Positions 5,893 through 14,661 of a DNA stretch of 64,000 bases are shown here, in pieces. The stretch lies in contig NZ_JARHTQ010000002.1 in assembly GCF_029223525.1 (NCBI RefSeq), positions 434,001 through 498,000 of the forward strand, given 5' to 3'. Position 1 is the first letter of the stretch, and each line of letters begins with the position of its first letter. This stretch comes from Streptantibioticus ferralitis. Lineage in GTDB: Bacteria; Actinomycetota; Actinomycetes; Streptomycetales; Streptomycetaceae. A program made the translations under genes and the position numbers. The notes below the pieces were generated by a model, which was not told where the DNA came from, searched no databases, and saw only the letters and a list, made by a program, of their open reading frames with translations.

Positions 5893-8235
5893 GTGATCAC
5901 TAGTGCCGCGTCGGCGGAAGCGCGTGTCACGGGCGGTTCCCGGCAGGACACACTGGCGGTGCTAGGCGCGGTCGAGCGCCGGGTGCTGTGGCTGTCGTCG
6001 GCGATCATCGATCACGCGAACCGGGTACGGCCGAATCCCTCAGGACTGAAGGTCGGCGGCCATCAGGCGTCCAGCGCCTCGATGGCCTCGATCATGACGG
6101 CACTGTGGTTCCATGAACTCACCGCGCACGACCGGGTCTCGGTCAAGCCGCACGCCTCGCCCGTGCTGCACGCGATCAACTATCTGCTGGGGGAGTTGGA
6201 CCCGTCGTACCTGACGACCCTGCGGTCCTTCGGCGGCCTGCAGAGTTACCCCAGCCGCTCGAAGGACCCCGATCCCGTCGACTACTCCACCGGATCGGTG
6301 GGCATCGGCGCCACCGCCCCCATCTGGGGTGCCATCGCCCGGCGTTACGTCGAGGGCCGCTTCGGCGGGGCGGGCGTCGGACGGCAGTACTCGCTGCTCG
6401 GCGACGCCGAACTCGACGAGGGCGCCATCTGGGAGGCCATCCAGGATCCGATGGTCCCCGACCTCGGCGAGATCGTCTGGATCGTCGACTTCAACCGGCA
6501 GTCGCTGGACCGCGTGGTGCCGGAGATCGCCGCCGGTCGGCTGCAGGGCATGTTCGCGGCCGCGGGCTGGCAAGTGATCACCGTGAAGTACGGGCAGTTG
6601 CTGGAGGAGCTGTTCACCCGCCCCGGCGGTGAGATGCTGCGCAAGCGCCTGGACACCATGGGCAACCCGGAGTACCAGCGGCTGCTGCGGTGCACCGCGC
6701 AGCAGTTGCGCGAGCGGCTGCCCGGCGCGGGTTCGACGGCCGCGCCCATCGCCCGGCTGATCGCGGAGCTGGACGACGACACCCTTCGGGCCGCTGTGCG
6801 CAACCTCGGCGGCCATGACCTCGGCGCGCTCCTGGAGGCGTACCGGAGCATCGACGACACCCGCCCGACCGTCATCTTCGGCTACACGGTGAAGGGCTAC
6901 GGCCTGTCCAGCGAGGGACACCCGCAGAACCACTCCTCCTTGCTGACCGCCGACCAGATGGCTGATCTGGCGCGCCGTCTGGGGACCGACCTGGACGACC
7001 CGTGGGCGGGCTTCGCCGACGGCAGCGCGGAGGCGGCCCTGTGCAAGCAGGCCGCCGACCGGCTGCGGCGCACGGACTTCCCGCGCCAGCGGCCCCCGGC
7101 ACTGCCCGCCGACATCGGCCGCACCCCCACCGGTACCGGCAACACACAGCAGGCCCTCGGGCGGCTGCTGCTGGACCTGACCCGGCAGGCGCCGCAGGCG
7201 GCGGCCCGGATCGTGACCGTCAGCCCCGATGTCAGCTCCTCCACCAACCTCGGCGGCTGGCTGAACAAGGCCGGGGTGTGGTCGCACGCGGAGCGCCCCG
7301 ACTGGTTCGCCGACGACGCCGAGACCATCCTGCACTGGCGGGAGAAGCCCACCGGTCAGCACCTGGAGCTCGGCATCGCCGAGACCAACCTGGTGGGACT
7401 GCTCGGCGAGCTCGGCGCCACCTGGAGCCGCTGGGGCGAGCCGTTGCTGCCGATCGGCGTGGTGTACGACCCGTTCGTCAACCGCGCCTTGGAACCCTGG
7501 TCGTTCGGGATGTACGCGGGCGGGCAGTCGATCCTGGTGGGTACCCCGTCGGGTGTCACCCTGGCCCCGGAGGGCGGGGCACACCAGTCGATCACCACTC
7601 CGTCGCTGGGCATCGAACAGCCCGGCTGCGTCAGTTACGAGCCCGCGTTCGCGATCGAGACGGAATGGTGTCTGCTGGCCGCGCTGGCCAACCTGGGCAA
7701 ACCTGACGGGAGTTCGGCCTATCTGCGGCTGTCCACCCGCCCGGTGGACCAGACGCTTGCCGCGGTGCCCGCCGACCCGGCCGCCCGCGAGCGCCGCCGT
7801 CGCCAGGCCGTCGCCGGTGCGTACGCGCTGCGGCGGCCGGAGAAGCCCGCGGTGACCATTGCGGTGATGGGCGCCATGGTCCCCGAGGCCCTCGCCGCGG
7901 CCGATCGGCTGGCCGCCCTAGGCTTCCCCGCCGACGTGGTCTGCGTGACCAGCCCAGACCTGCTCTTCCGGGCCGTGCAGGGCAGGCGCGGTCTGCAGGA
8001 CGGCCCCGGCTGGCTGCTCGACCAGGTCTTCCCGGCCGAGCGGGCGGTCCCGATGGTCACGCTCCTCGACGGCCACCCGCATACGCTGGCGTTCCTCGCC
8101 ACGATCAACAACGTGCCGGTGACCACGCTGGGCGTGAGCCGCTTCGGCCAGTCCGGCGCCATCGACGACGTCTACCGCTACCACGGCATCGACACCGACA
8201 GCGTCGTCCGGGCCGCCCTGGACCTGGTCGACTGA
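5893..8235 (+). CDS. Pyruvate dehydrogenase E1-like (AceE-type) thiamine diphosphate enzyme
   Basis: 780 aa, GTG start after GGAGGTGGTGGAG. It shows the order of single-chain AceE-type E1 proteins: substrate-channel motif SSASMASIMTALW, FGGLQSYPS, then the ThDP/Mg motif GDAELDEG with the downstream VDFNRQS (the third residue of the usual GDG is Ala), a TK-type pyrimidine domain with ELGIAETN, and a C-terminal transketolase-like domain (about 640-775). E. coli AceE is about 890 aa, so this is a shorter relative. The expected reaction is oxidative decarboxylation of pyruvate or a similar 2-oxo acid; no E2 or E3 gene is adjacent, so the partner complex and substrate are uncertain. The divergent Lrp-type gene probably controls it. 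Confidence 0.75.
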   Translation: MITSAASAEARVTGGSRQDTLAVLGAVERRVLWLSSAIIDHANRVRPNPSGLKVGGHQASSASMASIMTALWFHELTAHDRVSVKPHASPVLHAINYLLGELDPSYLTTLRSFGGLQSYPSRSKDPDPVDYSTGSVGIGATAPIWGAIARRYVEGRFGGAGVGRQYSLLGDAELDEGAIWEAIQDPMVPDLGEIVWIVDFNRQSLDRVVPEIAAGRLQGMFAAAGWQVITVKYGQLLEELFTRPGGEMLRKRLDTMGNPEYQRLLRCTAQQLRERLPGAGSTAAPIARLIAELDDDTLRAAVRNLGGHDLGALLEAYRSIDDTRPTVIFGYTVKGYGLSSEGHPQNHSSLLTADQMADLARRLGTDLDDPWAGFADGSAEAALCKQAADRLRRTDFPRQRPPALPADIGRTPTGTGNTQQALGRLLLDLTRQAPQAAARIVTVSPDVSSSTNLGGWLNKAGVWSHAERPDWFADDAETILHWREKPTGQHLELGIAETNLVGLLGELGATWSRWGEPLLPIGVVYDPFVNRALEPWSFGMYAGGQSILVGTPSGVTLAPEGGAHQSITTPSLGIEQPGCVSYEPAFAIETEWCLLAALANLGKPDGSSAYLRLSTRPVDQTLAAVPADPAARERRRRQAVAGAYALRRPEKPAVTIAVMGAMVPEALAAADRLAALGFPADVVCVTSPDLLFRAVQGRRGLQDGPGWLLDQVFPAERAVPMVTLLDGHPHTLAFLATINNVPVTTLGVSRFGQSGAIDDVYRYHGIDTDSVVRAALDLVD

Positions 8236-8277: not shown

Positions 8278-10194
8278 TCACGCCTGCTGCTTGCGTTCCT
8301 GGGGCGTCCCGTCGGCCGGGGCGGGCGTCAGCGGTTCCGCGGCGTAGCGGTTCTGCTCGGTGAGCAGGCGGGCGAAGGGCCCGCCCTGCGCCTGCAGTTG
8401 CCGGTAGGTTCCGCGTTCGGCGATCCGTCCGGCCTGCAGGACGGCGATTTCGTCGACCTGTCCCAGGGTGCTGAGCCGGTGCGAGATGACGATGACCGTA
8501 CGGCCGCGGGTGAGGCGCTCCAGCGCGCGCAGCACCTCGGCCTCGGCTTCGACGTCGAGGTTCGTGGTCGGCTCGTCGAGGATGAGGATCGGCGCGTCCC
8601 GCAGCAGCGCGCGGGCGATGGCGATGCGCTGACGCTGGCCGCGGGAGAAGTTCTTGCCCAGTTCCCGGACCGCGGAGTGGTAGCCGCCGGGCAGTCCCGT
8701 GATCGTGTCGTGGATGTGGGCCTGCCGGGCGGCGGTGATCACCTGGTCGTCGGTCGCGCCCGGCCGACCGATGGCGATGTTGTCGCGGACGGTCCCCTCG
8801 AACAGGATCGAGTCCTCCGGCACGATGGCGATGTTGTCGCGCAGGACGCCCAGCGGGTAGTCGCGGACGTCCACGCCGTCGACGGTGACGCTGCCCTGCC
8901 AGGACTCGTAGAAGCGGGGCAGTAGGCGGGTGAGGGTGGTCTTCCCGCTGCCGGACAGTCCGACGAGGGCGAGGCGGGTGCCGACCCGGATGTGCAGATC
9001 GATGCCGTGCAGCACCGGGCGGTGCGGGTCGTAGCCGAACACCACGCCGCGGTAGGCGATTTCACCGCGGATGCGCGGCGGACCGGCGTAGCGGCGGGAG
9101 GCCAGGCGGTGGTCCTCCCGGGGTTGGTCGAGGATCTCCTGGATGCGCCCGGCGGCCGCGGCCGCCGTGGAGGCCAGCAACGTGAGCTTGGACAGGTCGC
9201 GCATGGGTTGGTAGAGCTGCTTGGAGTAGGCGAGGAAGACGGTCAGGGTGCCGATGGTGAGGCTGGCCGCGGGGATGGTGAGGATCCCCAGCGTGTAGCC
9301 CTGCTCGTGGCCGGCGGCGATCCAGGCGCCCAAGGTGATGATCACGACGTCGCTCACCGTGATGAAGACGATGACCAGGGGGTTGAACTCGGCCTGGCGC
9401 CGCCCGGCCTGGAGACCGAAGCGCCGCTGCCGGTCGACATGGCCTCCGAAGGCACGGGCCGCCCAGCGCTCCAGGGTGAACGCCTTGAGCTCGACGATCG
9501 CCGTGATGGAGGCACTGGCCACCCGGGCGACATGGCCCGCGGCACGGGCAGCCTCCTTGGAGGCCCGCTTGACCCATCGGGTGTAGAGCAGCACGGTCAC
9601 GAACAGCAGCGGCGCCATGCACATCGCCAGGACGGTGAACTGCCAGTTGAGCACCAGCATCACGGTGAGGATCCCGGCGAGGGTCAGCACCCCGGACAGC
9701 AGGTCGACCAGCCCGTCGGTGACCAGCTTCTCGATGTCGGTGATGTTGCCGCTGACCCGCTGGACGACCTCGCCGACCTGCTGGCGTACATGCCAGTCGA
9801 GCGGCAGGTGCTCGATGTGCGCGAACAGCTTCTTGCGTAGCTTCGCTCCCAGGTCCTGGCCGACGAACGCGGCGACGGACAGCTGTACGAAGGCGACCAC
9901 CGCGCTGATCAGCCCGAGGGCGAGGAACATCAGCCCGGCGAAGAGGAGTACCCCGAGTTGGGTGTGCTCCTCCGTGGCGTCCGTTCCGCCGCGGTTCCCG
10001 AAACGGTCGAAGTAGTCGATGAGCCAGTCGGTGAAGGGGATGTCCGGATCCCGATGGTTGACGATCTTGTCCAGGATGATCTTGAAGGGGAAGGCCGCCA
10101 GGACGTCGCTGGCCACCGCGACGAAGGTGAGCGCGACCGCGAGGCAGACGAGCAGCCGACGGCCCCGCAGGTGCCGATAGAGAAAGCGGATCAT
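8278..10194 (-). CDS. ABC exporter half-transporter (membrane domain fused to ATPase)
   Basis: 638 aa. The N-terminal type I exporter membrane domain (about 10-340) has six hydrophobic segments; the ATPase domain (about 375-610) has Walker A GLSGSGKTT, signature FSRGQRQRIAIA, Walker B ILILDEPTTNLD and the switch His in VISHRLST. There is no N-terminal C39 peptidase domain, so it does not cleave a leader peptide itself. Its ATG overlaps the stop of the ATP-grasp/kinase fusion (ATGA), so it is translated from the same operon. It probably works as a homodimer exporting the product of the two ATP-grasp enzymes or an envelope lipid/glycoconjugate; the substrate is unknown. Confidence 0.88.
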   Translation of the reverse strand: MIRFLYRHLRGRRLLVCLAVALTFVAVASDVLAAFPFKIILDKIVNHRDPDIPFTDWLIDYFDRFGNRGGTDATEEHTQLGVLLFAGLMFLALGLISAVVAFVQLSVAAFVGQDLGAKLRKKLFAHIEHLPLDWHVRQQVGEVVQRVSGNITDIEKLVTDGLVDLLSGVLTLAGILTVMLVLNWQFTVLAMCMAPLLFVTVLLYTRWVKRASKEAARAAGHVARVASASITAIVELKAFTLERWAARAFGGHVDRQRRFGLQAGRRQAEFNPLVIVFITVSDVVIITLGAWIAAGHEQGYTLGILTIPAASLTIGTLTVFLAYSKQLYQPMRDLSKLTLLASTAAAAAGRIQEILDQPREDHRLASRRYAGPPRIRGEIAYRGVVFGYDPHRPVLHGIDLHIRVGTRLALVGLSGSGKTTLTRLLPRFYESWQGSVTVDGVDVRDYPLGVLRDNIAIVPEDSILFEGTVRDNIAIGRPGATDDQVITAARQAHIHDTITGLPGGYHSAVRELGKNFSRGQRQRIAIARALLRDAPILILDEPTTNLDVEAEAEVLRALERLTRGRTVIVISHRLSTLGQVDEIAVLQAGRIAERGTYRQLQAQGGPFARLLTEQNRYAAEPLTPAPADGTPQERKQQA

Positions 10195-12494
10195 CCGTCA
10201 CGTCCTTCAGCGAACCGTTCCAGGCACCGGTCGATCTCGGCCACAACAGCTTGCACCTCGGCGGGACGGGGACTGCCCAGGCGGCGCACCCGCCGCGAAG
10301 CGACCTTCAGCAGCAAGGCGGCGTCGAACAGGGCGGCCCGTCGGCGTACCGCGGCGAGGTGCGCCTGGTCGGCGCCGTGGCGGGCCAGCGCGGCCAGGTA
10401 GGCATCGAGGAAGACGTCCCTGGCCGCTTCGTACCAGCCCCGGACACCCGGCCGCGCGAGTTCCGGATGGGGTGGGCGCAGATAGGCGAGGAAGTACCCC
10501 ACGTCGAGCGCCGGGTCGCCCTGGCCGACACCGTCCAGGTCGGTGATGACCGGATGGCAGGGCGGGCAGAACACCAGCTGGCTGGGTTTGAACGCCCCGT
10601 GGACCAGAGCGAGATCGTCGCTTTCGGCATGAGTGAGCGCCTCGGCGAGCGGATGAACGGCCTGGTCCAGCGCTCCGTTGAGTCCGTGGACCGTGTCGGA
10701 CAGGGCCTGTGCCCACCGCCGCGCCCGGGCCGCGTAGGCGGCGCCGCGGGGCGCGGCACGCCCGGACGCCACTCCGCTGGTGTGCATCCAGGCCAGCGCC
10801 GCCGCGCTGGCGGCGAGTGCCGCGGACGGTGGGCCCACTGCGGCGCGCAGGCGCCGGGGCGGGCGCAGGAGAGCCGTCCCGGCCAACTGGCCGCCGTGGT
10901 GGGCACCGCCCGCGGTCTCGGTGATCACCAGACCGAGTTCCGCCGCCAGCGCCAGCGGGCGCGGTACGACGGCGGGTGCGGCTGGCCGACCGTCCGCCGC
11001 CGGTTGGAGCGGGCCCGAGCGGTCGTGTGCCGCCCACAGTTGCTCGGCGAGGCGGTAGGCCGCCGCGGCGTCGGCGGGGTCGCGGTAGAGCTTGCCGAAG
11101 AAGACGAGTTCGTGCTGGCCGGGCAGCCGCACCTGGTAGCGCAGTACACATCGGGCCGCGGGCTTGTAGCGGACCGGGCTGACCCGCAGCTCGCTGACGC
11201 GGGCGCCGGGGTCGTCCAGCACCGTTCTGGCCGCGGCCGTCAGCGCCGAGGCCAGCCTGCCGTCCAGCGGGGAGGTGGCGCACGCGGCGGACAGGGTGGG
11301 CAGGTCGGCGTCGTGGGGGAAGGACTGCAGGGTGAGGCCGACCCGGGGGCAGCGCAGGATGCCGGGCCAGTAACCGCGGAACTCGGCCGGGTCGGCGGAG
11401 GAAAGCAACTCGCCGACACGGGAGTCGGCAAGGGCAGAGTCGGTGAGTAGGACGGTCACCAGCGGCCACGGCGTGCCCGCCGTTCCGCGCCGGTCGTGCG
11501 GTCGGTAGCTCGCGGTCAGCCCCCGGCCGGGCTTGCGGCGCACCGAAGCGACATGCAGGGCCACCGGGGCCGGACCGCTCTCGGCTCCGCCGTCGAGCGC
11601 GCTGATCAGGTCGCGTACCGCCTCATGGAGCACGGCCACCGGGGATGCCGACGACCGGCGCCGCTCCTTGGAACGGCGGGCGGGCACGTAAGGCGGGGAC
11701 TCGGCCTGCTGGATGAACGTGGCGAGTGCCCGGGGAGCGCCGGGGACGCCACGGCACCCGGGGAAGGGATTGACGTCGACAACCATCGGCCCGTCGGCGG
11801 TGGCGAGGATGTCGACCCCGTAGATCCGCAGGTCGAACACCTCCCCGGCGGCCCGGGCCAGGTCGAGCCAGCCCGGCGGGAGTTGCTGGGGGTTGAGCGT
11901 TCGGGTCACGGTCGGCACCCTGCCGTCCAGCGTGCTGTGGCGCAGGCCGGCGAAGACCTGCTTGCCGATCAACCACAGCTTGTAGTCCCAACCGTCGTTG
12001 GCGATGAAGTCCTGGACGACGACGGGCTCACCGGTCCAGTCCCCCTCCAGCGACCGCAGACGGTCCGGACCGTCGAGCCGGGCCACCAGGTCCATCCGGC
12101 GGCTGGTCCGGCTTTTGACGACGAGCGGGAAACCCGGCGCCGACGAGTCCGCGAGCCCACCGCTGAGTTCGGACAACTGGGTGAAGTGGTGGGTGTCGGG
12201 GAACGGCAGGCCCGCCTTGCGTGCGAGGTCGGCCATCTGGACCCGGTCCTGGCACAGTGCGGTCGCGGCGGCGCCGTTCACCACATGGCTGCCCAGGCGC
12301 TCCACCTGCCGGGCGAGCGCGACCGCCTGCGGCGAGTGGGCTTTGAGCAGGTACAGATCGGCGGTTGGACGAGGGTCCGCGGTTGGCACGTCGTCGGGGT
12401 TGAACACCGCGACGCTGTGCCGCTCGCCCAGCAGATCGGGCAGCGTGGCGAGCAACGGATGGGCCGGGTTGTCGGTGAGCAGGCAGACCCTCAT
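10191..12494 (-). CDS. ATP-grasp ligase fused to an aminoglycoside-phosphotransferase-fold domain
   Basis: 767 aa. The N-terminal third (about 1-270) is a RimK-like ATP-grasp: a pre-ATP-grasp domain starting MRVCLLTDN, then FPLVVKSRTSRRMD, EPVVVQDFIAND, and the metal site VVDVNPFPG. The C-terminal half (about 300-750) looks like a kinase-fold phosphotransferase: an N-lobe (VRYKPAARCVLRY, FFGKLYRD) and a C-lobe with VHGAFKPSQLVF and ITDLDGVGQGDPALDVG. In the usual HxDxxxxN catalytic loop Asp is Ala and Asn is Gln, so phosphotransfer activity is doubtful although the later Asp of ITDLDG is kept. ATP-grasp enzymes form amide or ester bonds by acyl-phosphate chemistry; the substrates here are unknown. 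It overlaps both neighbours by 4 bp. Confidence 0.75.
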   Translation of the reverse strand: MRVCLLTDNPAHPLLATLPDLLGERHSVAVFNPDDVPTADPRPTADLYLLKAHSPQAVALARQVERLGSHVVNGAAATALCQDRVQMADLARKAGLPFPDTHHFTQLSELSGGLADSSAPGFPLVVKSRTSRRMDLVARLDGPDRLRSLEGDWTGEPVVVQDFIANDGWDYKLWLIGKQVFAGLRHSTLDGRVPTVTRTLNPQQLPPGWLDLARAAGEVFDLRIYGVDILATADGPMVVDVNPFPGCRGVPGAPRALATFIQQAESPPYVPARRSKERRRSSASPVAVLHEAVRDLISALDGGAESGPAPVALHVASVRRKPGRGLTASYRPHDRRGTAGTPWPLVTVLLTDSALADSRVGELLSSADPAEFRGYWPGILRCPRVGLTLQSFPHDADLPTLSAACATSPLDGRLASALTAAARTVLDDPGARVSELRVSPVRYKPAARCVLRYQVRLPGQHELVFFGKLYRDPADAAAAYRLAEQLWAAHDRSGPLQPAADGRPAAPAVVPRPLALAAELGLVITETAGGAHHGGQLAGTALLRPPRRLRAAVGPPSAALAASAAALAWMHTSGVASGRAAPRGAAYAARARRWAQALSDTVHGLNGALDQAVHPLAEALTHAESDDLALVHGAFKPSQLVFCPPCHPVITDLDGVGQGDPALDVGYFLAYLRPPHPELARPGVRGWYEAARDVFLDAYLAALARHGADQAHLAAVRRRAALFDAALLLKVASRRVRRLGSPRPAEVQAVVAEIDRCLERFAEGRDG

Positions 12495-13441
12495 GGCAGC
12501 CTCGCGCCGGTGTGCTCGTCAGCCGCCGGGACGAGCGGGCTCGGCCCCGCCTGCCCGTCGCCCTCGCGGTCGTCGGCGCTGACCCGGGCGGTGGTCAGCA
12601 GGGTGGCGGCGCCCTCCGCACGTTGTGTACGGCCCGCCGCGGCCAGCCGAAGGATCTTCCTGGCGACCCGCTGGACCGCGTTGGGGACACACCGGAAGCT
12701 GGGGAAGTCGTTGACGTCGACCACGACCCACCCGTCCGGCCCCTCCAACAGGTCCACCCCGAACAGGTCGAGACCGAACACCTCGCCCACGGCGGTGGTG
12801 ACCTGGGCCAACTCGGCTGTCAGCGCCGTCCGGTGGCCCCGCACCGGAAGACCGGGGTGCAACGGCGAGCGGTGGATGGTGGCGTGCAACTCCCCGCCGA
12901 TGCTGTAGACCTTGACGTCCACGCCGGGGTTGACGACATACGGCTGCGCGAGCAGGAATCCTTCACCGGCGAGCGAACTGGCGATGCCGCTCAGCTCGGC
13001 GGGCTTGCTCACCAGATGGACCGCGCGGCCCGAGTTGCCGCCCGTGGGCTTGACGACCAGCGGGTAGTGCTCGTCCGGTATCTGGTGCAGAAGCGCGGGA
13101 CCGGCCGCGAAATACGTCAGGGGGAATGCCAGTCCGGCCCGGCGGGCGATGGCCGCCGCGACCGCCTTGTCACGCACCAGCCGGATCGCGCGGGCGTCGT
13201 TTATCGTGTTCAGCCCGCTGGCCGCCACCGCCTCCAGCACGCTCAACCCAGGGCCGCCCGAAACGGTCTTGAGGATCCAGGCGTCATGGGAGCCTTCGTG
13301 GGCCGGATCGGAGATCTTGGCGATGGACCGTCCCGGCTCGAACACGTCGATGTGATGGTTCCACTCTGCCAGTTGGCGGGCCACAGCCAGGGGCATGCTG
13401 TCGCGGCGGTAGCAATCCTCGACGATGAAACACAGCCTCAT
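12491..13441 (-). CDS. Stand-alone ATP-grasp ligase (RimK-like)
   Basis: 316 aa from ATG 13441; an upstream in-frame extension to 13486 lacks family features. The protein begins MRLCFIVEDC, paralogous to the start of the next gene. ATP-binding YPLVVKPTGGNSGR (about 135-150), the lid FLLAQPYV, and the metal-binding VVVDVNDFPSF near residue 250 are all present. The last 60 residues are a hydrophilic extension. It is first of a three-gene operon and overlaps the ATP-grasp/kinase fusion by ATGA. Two ATP-grasp proteins in tandem followed by an exporter suggests stepwise ligation of amino acids onto a carrier peptide or small molecule, then export; no product is known to me. Confidence 0.8.
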   Translation of the reverse strand: MRLCFIVEDCYRRDSMPLAVARQLAEWNHHIDVFEPGRSIAKISDPAHEGSHDAWILKTVSGGPGLSVLEAVAASGLNTINDARAIRLVRDKAVAAAIARRAGLAFPLTYFAAGPALLHQIPDEHYPLVVKPTGGNSGRAVHLVSKPAELSGIASSLAGEGFLLAQPYVVNPGVDVKVYSIGGELHATIHRSPLHPGLPVRGHRTALTAELAQVTTAVGEVFGLDLFGVDLLEGPDGWVVVDVNDFPSFRCVPNAVQRVARKILRLAAAGRTQRAEGAATLLTTARVSADDREGDGQAGPSPLVPAADEHTGARLP

Positions 13442-13596
13442 CGGACCGCACCCTCTCGTCGTCGGCGGCATAACACCGCAGAGCATCGTTATGCCGGGGC
13501 CTAATCGGCGGTACGCCGGCTAGATTCCGAGGCAACCAGTGGCACGACCGTGGCGCCCACTCAACTAGGCCATTCGGTTAACGGAGGGCGGATCTG

Positions 13597-13745
13597 GTGA
13601 ATCCGGAACATGGCGTGGAAGTGAACCACCGGAGCGCTGTTCGTTTAGCCCTCGTCGCCTGGTACGTCGGCTTCGTTGCGGGGGAGCGTGATCGGCTCCC
13701 CAGGCTGGGCGCGGACCTCGGCGGGGACGGGCCGTCGGAATCCTG
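13597..13745 (+). CDS. Small ORF (49 aa) divergent from the ATP-grasp operon, with a TTA codon
   Basis: GTG start with GGAGGG nine bases upstream, encoding 49 residues. It begins MNPEHGVEVNHRS, has a hydrophobic stretch LALVAWYVGFVAG (about 17-29) and a charged Gly-rich tail ending DGPSES. It carries a TTA leucine codon (rare in streptomycetes, decoded by the bldA tRNA) and its third-position GC is lower than neighbours. A strong 13-bp hairpin begins 31 bases after its stop. I do not recognise a family. It could be a small membrane-associated peptide or a substrate of the divergent enzymes; the acidic tail alone does not make it a graspetide-type precursor. It may also be a chance ORF. Confidence 0.4.
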
Positions 13746-13775
13746 ATCCCGGGTCAACTGGTGTGCCGGGAGGTG

Positions 13776-13810
13776 CCGGTCCCCGGCCGGTTGGCATGGC
13801 CGGGGACCGG
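13776..13810. terminator. Bidirectional hairpin terminator
   Basis: A perfect 13-bp stem (13776-13788 with 13798-13810, CCGGTCCCCGGCC and its complement) with a 9-base loop. It lies between the end of the small rightward ORF and the end of the leftward IPT/TIG gene, so it can serve both. Confidence 0.75.
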
Positions 13811-13836
13811 AACATGGGTGACGCTGTGAGGGGACG

Positions 13837-14661
13837 TCACACGAAGGTGAAGCCACCCGCCACCGTGGTGCTGCCGCCCGGGGCGGTGACGCCCACGGCG
13901 ACGTTGCCCGCTGCGTGCGGGGGGGTCACGCCGGCCAGCACCGTGCCCGCGCCGTTCACCACGATGCCGGTCGCCGGGACGCCGCCGAAGGTGACGGTGG
14001 CGCCGGTGAGGTTGCTGCCGATGATGACGAACGGCGTGCCACCGGCGACCGGACCGGTGATGGGCGTGATGGTGGTGGCCACCGGCGGAAGCACCGCGAC
14101 ATAGGTGAAGCCGCCGGCGACGGTGGTGCTGCCGCCCGGAGTGGTGACCACGACGGTCGCGTTGCCGGCCGCACCCACCGGGGTGACACCGGTCAGAATC
14201 GTGCCGGTCGGGTCCACCGTCACACCTGTGGCGGCAACGCCGTTGAAGGTGACGGTGGCACCGGTGAGGTTGGTGCCGATGATGGTGAACGTCGTACCGC
14301 CGGTGACCGGGCCGGTGATCGGGGTGAGGCTGACCACGACGGGAGCCATCGGGGGCAGGTACGTGTACATGGCCGGGGCACTCGTACCGCCGGCGTTCGT
14401 GACCACCACCGGTACCGTTCCGGCGGCGTGGGCCGGGGCCAGGACGATGATCACGACCCCGATCGGGTCCTGGAACAGGATGGTCGCCGGTGTGCCGCCG
14501 AAGGTGACCGACGAGGCGTTGGCGAGTCCCGATCCGAGGATCAGGACGGGGTTGCCGCCGGCGGCGGGCCCGGACATGGGGACGACGAGCCCGATGCTCG
14601 GGGCGCCGGGGAAGGGGAATCCGGTCGGGAACCCGGGAATCTGCAGGGCGGGGGTGGACAT
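13837..14661 (-). CDS. IPT/TIG repeat protein
   Basis: 274 aa from ATG 14661, which has GAGGAGG seven bases upstream. A longer in-frame GTG at 14778 also has AGGAGG and would add 39 low-complexity residues. After a short leader (TPALQIPGFPTGF) come three immunoglobulin-like IPT/TIG repeats of about 83 residues (roughly 22-105, 106-190, 191-274), each opening with P-x-x-G-P-x-x-GG and containing a V-T-F-G/N-G-V/T motif, closing GGSTTVAGGFTYV in the last two. There is no signal peptide and no membrane segment. Such all-beta repeats usually mediate binding or assembly; the partner is unknown. The near-identity of the last two repeats suggests recent internal duplication. Confidence 0.75.
   Translation of the reverse strand: MSTPALQIPGFPTGFPFPGAPSIGLVVPMSGPAAGGNPVLILGSGLANASSVTFGGTPATILFQDPIGVVIIVLAPAHAAGTVPVVVTNAGGTSAPAMYTYLPPMAPVVVSLTPITGPVTGGTTFTIIGTNLTGATVTFNGVAATGVTVDPTGTILTGVTPVGAAGNATVVVTTPGGSTTVAGGFTYVAVLPPVATTITPITGPVAGGTPFVIIGSNLTGATVTFGGVPATGIVVNGAGTVLAGVTPPHAAGNVAVGVTAPGGSTTVAGGFTFV

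Follow-up and report, generated by a model that had tools for sequence, protein, structure and literature searches.

What does an operon make when it joins two ATP-grasp genes to an ABC (ATP-binding cassette) exporter gene, and do its ATP-grasp enzymes act as ligases or as kinases? The question is raised by three leftward genes, called A, B and C here, in a 64,000-nucleotide stretch (the window) of Streptantibioticus ferralitis contig NZ_JARHTQ010000002.1, part of a genome (G000) of 110 contigs and 8.8 Mb in total. From comparisons of sequence we propose that A and the ATP-grasp part of B may be kinases of an inositol (or related polyol) phosphate, that the second half of B would be a pseudokinase, and that C would carry the product out of the cell. 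Taken as a whole, this proposal is quite possible, while falling somewhat short of probable. The genes and their parts lie as follows.

8278..10194, minus strand: gene C, a 638-aa MsbA-like ABC exporter (Pfam, NCBIfam).
10191..10194, minus strand: ATGA overlap of genes B and C, read from the sequence and the open reading frame (ORF) calls.
10191..12494, minus strand: gene B, a 767-aa fusion of an ATP-grasp domain and a putative APH-fold pseudokinase (ORF call; Pfam RimK and Ins134_P3_kin).
10194..11642, minus strand: APH-fold half of gene B (PF01636 in 3/6 members; profile match to the ACAD11 kinase domain).
11700..12494, minus strand: ATP-grasp domain of gene B, about residues 1-265 (pairwise alignment).
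12491..12494, minus strand: ATGA overlap of genes A and B, read from the sequence and the ORF calls.
12491..13441, minus strand: gene A, a 316-aa RimK-like ATP-grasp protein with an ITPK/PPIP5K-type catalytic segment (ORF call; Pfam RimK 8.4e-10).

An earlier note, made from the letters of the window alone, had described the three genes as one overlapping operon with two paralogous ATP-grasp enzymes and an exporter devoid of a peptidase domain. All of this was borne out. The overlaps are present in the sequence and in the ORF calls, so that the operon is real; A and B are paralogous (about 30–32% identity), both exceed the Pfam RimK cut-off of 21 bits (39 and 37.9 bits, respectively), and both keep the metal and phosphate residues of the ATP-grasp motifs. 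By its composition, one loop of the ATP-grasp domain of B is basic and SR-rich in place of the glycine-rich loop. Gene C matched ABC_membrane, ABC_tran and overlapping AAA-type families only; a C39-type N-terminal peptidase domain, looked for with Pfam, was not found in it. Its nearest NCBIfam models are of the MsbA type, with scores under their cut-offs.

The suggestion of kinase chemistry comes from the active site, in which two short motifs hold the presumed catalytic lysine.

11979..11987, minus strand: D-Y-K of gene B, residues 170-172; Lys invariant in 27/27 homologues of B.
12911..12919, minus strand: D-V-K of gene A, residues 175-177; Lys invariant in 27/27 homologues of A.

Residues were counted in 72 sequences (27 homologues of A, 27 of B and 18 distant homologues), with two fetched genes of true RimK for comparison. 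The DxK lysine was present in all 72, including 18/18 distant homologues, as was the first Asp of the metal site; the second Asp and the Asn were each found in 71/72. At the same sites the true RimK genes have DIR and EVN, and their NxHRGG loop was found in none of the 72 sequences. A and B differ from the RimK/LysX/ArgX ligases in having DxK and DxN instead of DxR and ExN, in lacking the NxHRGG loop, in occurring as a pair and, for B, in the basic loop. Conversely, they share with ITPK and PPIP5K (Vip1/Asp1) the catalytic segment GxDxKxY...RxS and the DxNxFP motif, as well as the catalytic Lys, the two metal-binding Asp and the Asn. In the Asp1 kinase, an essential histidine, His204, contacts the beta-phosphate of ATP. 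Excerpts of PMC9765450 give Lys260, Asp321 and Asp333 of Asp1 as essential, and the Asn as not.

A 36-residue catalytic segment, picked afterwards, was searched against 177,635 PDB sequences. The ITPK1 entry 7tn6 (3.3e-4) and PPIP5K2 (3.6e-3) scored ahead of LysX-type entries (0.0097–0.022) and of RimK (1.4). The Pfam family Ins134_P3_kin, with a cut-off of 23 bits, was exceeded by gene B (24.7 and 28.9 bits), gene A remaining under it with 18.2 bits, and the family was matched at 0.01 by 17/18 distant homologues. No match to it was found at 1e-3 in the window's genome. At the same threshold in 296 genomes of the same phylum, all 10 matches fell inside operons with three ATP-grasp genes, described below, in 4 genomes (controls, 0/14).

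The second half of gene B had been read in the earlier note as a phosphotransferase fold. The APH-like fold stood, but the residues needed for catalysis are replaced.

10578..10601, minus strand: HGAFKPSQ motif of gene B; Ala stands for the usual catalytic Asp, and Gln for the usual Asn, in 6/6 relatives.

PF01636 (APH) matched three of the six sequences of this half (best 2.6e-10), the window's own sequence being without a match, and the ACAD11 kinase domain matched the six-sequence profile at 3.3e-8. The likeness to APH/ACAD11-type kinase domains spans some 120 residues in the surroundings of HG.FK and of the DxD region, the latter being kept. However, at the position of HGD....N in kinases of this fold, all six sequences show HGAFKPSQ, so that the catalytic Asp and Asn of HGDxxxxN were found in none. 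Because of this replacement the half is most likely no working kinase and probably a pseudokinase, a repurposed site being possible. The better-scoring PDB entry for the half was 8V3U. According to an excerpt of PMC12440821, 8V3U is a mutant of ACAD11 made kinase-dead by replacing the catalytic Asp with Ala.

The pseudokinase half is rare, and it travels with the exporter. At 1e-8, 196/197 genomes of the class had no match to it, the single match being the window's own genome. Gene B with this half was found in Kutzneria viridogrisea, in the window's genus and in one further genus, the last represented by G009, whose sequence is the Streptomyces humicola locus L007, and by a piece in G023. Actinomadura alba has gene A fused directly to the C-terminal half, and this is the sole match of that genome to the B profile at 1e-10. 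Gene C was matched at 1e-120 in 5/100 related genomes, and these were exactly the five that match the C-terminal half of B. This agrees with the earlier idea of an uncharacterised pathway having its own exporter.

Which substrate such a pathway would use is suggested first by Kutzneria. Eight operons with gene C, from 7 genomes, were read (the window, L013, L014, L007, L070, L008, L009 and L128), and two of them, both in Kutzneria, hold a gene for myo-inositol-3-phosphate synthase. It follows C (TIGR03450, 673 bits for a cut-off of 638), with a likely start codon that shares an ATGA with the stop of C. Three synthase genes occur in the genome: the second lies after C in a second whole copy of the operon, on another contig and with the same ATGA coupling, and the third has no A, B or C within the 13 kb read around it. 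Between the two operon copies, protein identity is 76% for A, 55% for B and 76% for C, and the three synthases are about 99% identical. Diverged operons with nearly identical synthases fit a gene that joined the operon before its duplication and was kept identical by gene conversion, or one that was renewed later. Under either history, this genome ties the operon to the supply of myo-inositol 3-phosphate, and the coupling resembles a lipid-independent route, a further likeness to the ITPK and PPIP5K systems.

Two other features were seen in Kutzneria. Beside the first operon copy (L009, 16223-22763) lie genes for a Pls/PosA-family peptide synthetase, a diaminobutyrate-aminotransferase-family protein and an aspartokinase-like protein, which together look like a poly-diaminobutyrate-type cluster. 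Elsewhere (L129, 6029-8323, minus strand) there is a lone full-length B, 42% identical to P0002, with no A or C in the 18 kb read.

More distant genomes provided a second indication. In the 296 genomes of the phylum, the B profile matched eight at 1e-20. Four of these have operons holding three ATP-grasp genes; the others are the window's own genome, G362 and G489 (true RimK in both) and G499 (a lone homologue). When the distant genome G089 is added, six such triple operons are known from five genomes (L067, L094-L098); in L098 the contig ends within the third ATP-grasp gene. A mannitol-1-phosphate-dehydrogenase-like (MtlD-like) gene is present in 6/6. It was called by Pfam in L067, by NCBIfam in L067, L094 and L097, and by tblastn in the remainder; its 132–150 bits are far under the cut-off of the best model (356), so that it is to be taken as a relative of MtlD rather than a demonstrated MtlD. 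A gene for a transporter like those of the major facilitator superfamily follows in all five triple operons where the contig continues (Pfam in L067, weak NCBIfam matches in L097, reading in L094-L096). We found no literature joining mannitol dehydrogenase and ATP-grasp. Response-regulator-like genes, some two or three in a row, were also seen to precede 5/6 triple operons (L094-L096, L098 and L067).

Together, the Kutzneria synthase and the MtlD-like genes point to a context of polyol or cyclitol phosphates, and the product probably derives from an inositol or polyol phosphate. In the scheme that we propose, A and the ATP-grasp part of B would be related small-molecule phosphotransferases, acting in sequence on myo-inositol 3-phosphate, and like ITPK and PPIP5K they would rely on a DxK lysine and a DxN metal site. 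The APH-fold domain that forms the second half of B would be catalytically dead, with a role in binding the substrate or product or in docking the enzymes to the exporter, and C would be the ABC exporter by which the compound leaves the cell. A more specific version is doubtful: a bacterial, lipid-independent pathway to inositol polyphosphate, or to a phosphorylated inositol conjugate, in which two ITPK-like ATP-grasp kinases, held by a pseudokinase, would phosphorylate one after the other the myo-inositol 3-phosphate made by the synthase, and a dedicated ABC transporter would export the product. More distant genomes of the phylum would then have a parallel version for polyol phosphates. Excerpts of PMC8024741 and PMC10897400 describe the ATP-grasp inositol phosphate kinases as eukaryotic, with ITPK also in Lokiarchaeota. 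A narrow, exact-phrase search found no literature on bacterial or prokaryotic inositol (poly)phosphate kinases, and the ITPK literature touching Actinobacteria, judged by title, held none on bacterial kinases. Should A and B prove to be kinases, bacteria would possess an inositol polyphosphate chemistry of their own that includes export, and pairs of related enzymes would allow a test of the DxK/DxN switch between ligase and kinase. Should they be ligases, their active sites would hold kinase-type residues, which is likewise worth knowing.

The pair itself is much more widespread than the exporter. Gene B was matched at 1e-20 in 26 of the 100 related genomes, namely 25/61 of the same family and the distant G089; in one of the 26, G023, only a piece of the C-terminal half is visible, at a contig end. 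A and B were adjacent and on the same strand in 26/26 loci where both could be located, with a 4-base overlap in 19 and gaps of 1 to 128 bases in the rest. When the neighbours were clustered (29 loci, gene calls of at least 50 aa), no gene other than A and B recurred widely: a mixed ABC cluster was present in 11 loci and the next largest cluster in 7, and some smaller clusters adjoin the pair in a single genus only. The pair mostly stands alone. Among 20 plasmid records retrieved with gene B, none covers 80% of the query. Two local neighbours were seen. In six genomes of genus g14 (L048, L054, L056, L058, L059 and L061), a divergent gene, P-loop ATPase-like by reading, adjoins A, and it is not beside the pair elsewhere. 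In Streptomyces natalensis (L012, 11639-13888, plus strand), a 749-aa gene, geosmin-synthase-like by reading, starts 97 bases after A/B; it was seen once.

Several observations weigh against the kinase proposal. By profile and by fold, the overall closest matches of A and B are RimK, LysX and ArgX, and both proteins show the similarity in fold and profile that is proper to RimK/LysX. Compared with ITPK and PPIP5K, they are bacterial and paired with each other, and their overall similarity to these kinases is lower than to RimK. For the distant homologues, 7drm and cyanophycin synthase rank ahead of ITPK. ITPK was also not among the 50 matches listed in a second search, which does not exclude it. 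It is therefore a serious possibility, less than probable, that A and B are true ligases of the RimK/LysX type, joining an amino acid or another carboxylate to a polyol, a cyclitol phosphate or an amine, and that the conjugate is exported. All 54 scanned homologues of A and B match Pfam RimK (E up to 1), and a polyol context suits a conjugate no less than a phosphate ester; since the RimK/LysX ligases are closest by overall similarity, the amino-acid conjugate of the earlier note is a possible product. The ligases' DxR and ExN are, however, replaced almost without exception, the NxHRGG loop is missing, and no NCBIfam cut-off was reached by either protein (rimK_fam, 104.1 and 51.3 bits for a cut-off of 143.4). 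RimK, being among the nearest solved relatives, also brings to mind that A and B might add residues to a protein, for example by RimK-like tailing of a ribosomal or transporter protein, the exporter sharing the operon by chance. A pair that mostly stands alone is what a housekeeping modifier might look like. Yet the exporter and the pseudokinase half were found only together with the pair's genes, and the Kutzneria synthase and the MtlD-like genes indicate small molecules, which makes this reading very unlikely.

The context could itself mislead, if the synthase and the MtlD-like genes were accidental neighbours of an operon with an unrelated product. The synthase adjoins the operon in one genome only, and most A/B pairs share no neighbour. 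Still, the two operon copies that hold the synthase with the same ATGA coupling differ by 24–45% in A, B and C, and the MtlD-like gene is in every triple operon, so that we consider the coincidence unlikely. The last candidate is a graspetide-like ribosomal peptide, built from a short ORF and exported by gene C, as the microviridin-type clusters, like this locus, have ATP-grasp genes near an ABC exporter. The entry 7drm, which like 9bou we take to be a graspetide enzyme, matched A (1.7e-4), B (1.7e-8) and the distant homologues (3.8e-21), behind ITPK for A and B and ahead of it for the distant homologues; RimK/LysX rank over both entries in all three groups. The APH-fold half has a very weak similarity to LxmK, at 1.3e-4, far under the cut-off. 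Unlike those clusters, however, no conserved precursor was found within 3 kb, the enzymes are not closest to the macrocyclases, and gene C has no peptidase domain in Pfam. A graspetide is thus extremely unlikely here, the more so as the short ORF at the head of the operon, the candidate precursor, is not kept even within the genus.

13597..13746, plus strand: 49-codon GTG ORF, judged a chance open frame outside the system; no Pfam, NCBIfam or PADLOC match.

The frame, a GGAGG-like stretch and the TTA codon are present as had been described, but a gene was not borne out. In both relatives of the same genus, the frame runs for ten codons and meets TAG at codon 11, and the Shine-Dalgarno sequence is not kept; the ORF was ruled out as a peptide precursor on this ground. 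A tblastn search with it against 107 loci gave a best E of 0.01, and the sole properly placed match covered codons 1-10 in a sister species. The GC contents of its first, second and third codon positions are 0.78, 0.50 and 0.74, and the third-position value is under the usual level for genes in such genomes. The earlier note proposed to look for co-occurrence of the pair, the exporter and a small ORF; the pair proved to be widespread without the ORF, an outcome which the note itself had named as speaking against its idea. We also surveyed 117 short ORFs of 20–100 aa that lie outside called genes and no more than 3 kb from one of seven exporter operons (the window, L013, L014, L007, L008, L009 and L128), and they gave no convincing candidate. 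Nothing was common to different genera beyond short, chance-like matches, 6 and 16 residues long; those within the genus sit in conserved DNA. The best-conserved short ORF (13425-13523, plus strand, 31–32 codons) spans the start of gene A and the inverted repeat described below, and is open only in three species of the genus, with 84% and 75% identity. Outside gene A, its changed codons were amino-acid-altering in 4/5, 8/10 and 5/7 cases; being mostly of this kind, the changes give no sign of selection as a protein.

The DNA ahead of gene A contains the following features.

13442..13625, minus strand: upstream region kept in the genus (blastn, 87% and 84% identity to two sister species).
13467..13495, no strand assigned: inverted repeat GGCATAAC-N13-GTTATGCC, 25 bases ahead of gene A, inside the conserved block.
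13837..14661, minus strand: IPT/TIG protein with three repeats (Pfam 4.9e-28 for the frame).

The blastn alignment comprised 245 bases, of which the final 60 are gene A, and the conserved block reaches only about 30 bases into the 49-codon ORF. This region is likely the promoter or leader of the operon. The inverted repeat is intact in one sister species and altered in the other, and may be an operator or a leader hairpin. The hairpin that had been noticed near the 49-codon ORF is present: read by eye, it is strong and GC-rich and occupies 13779-13815. Its place, immediately beyond the stop codon of the leftward IPT/TIG gene, makes it simpler to assign the hairpin to this gene than to the small ORF, and it is probably the gene's terminator. 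In the window the IPT/TIG gene directly precedes the operon; the two sister loci, L013 and L014, lack it at this position.

A PADLOC scan for defence systems gave no match for A, B, the 49-codon ORF or the TIG protein, and only ATPase-type matches for C; the window had no Rfam match at the gathering threshold and no tRNA. On the other side of the operon, a single gene like those of pyruvate dehydrogenase E1 and transketolase (5893-8235, plus strand; aceE 1.5e-56 in NCBIfam, far under the equivalog cut-off) is convergent with the exporter gene C and is kept within the genus.
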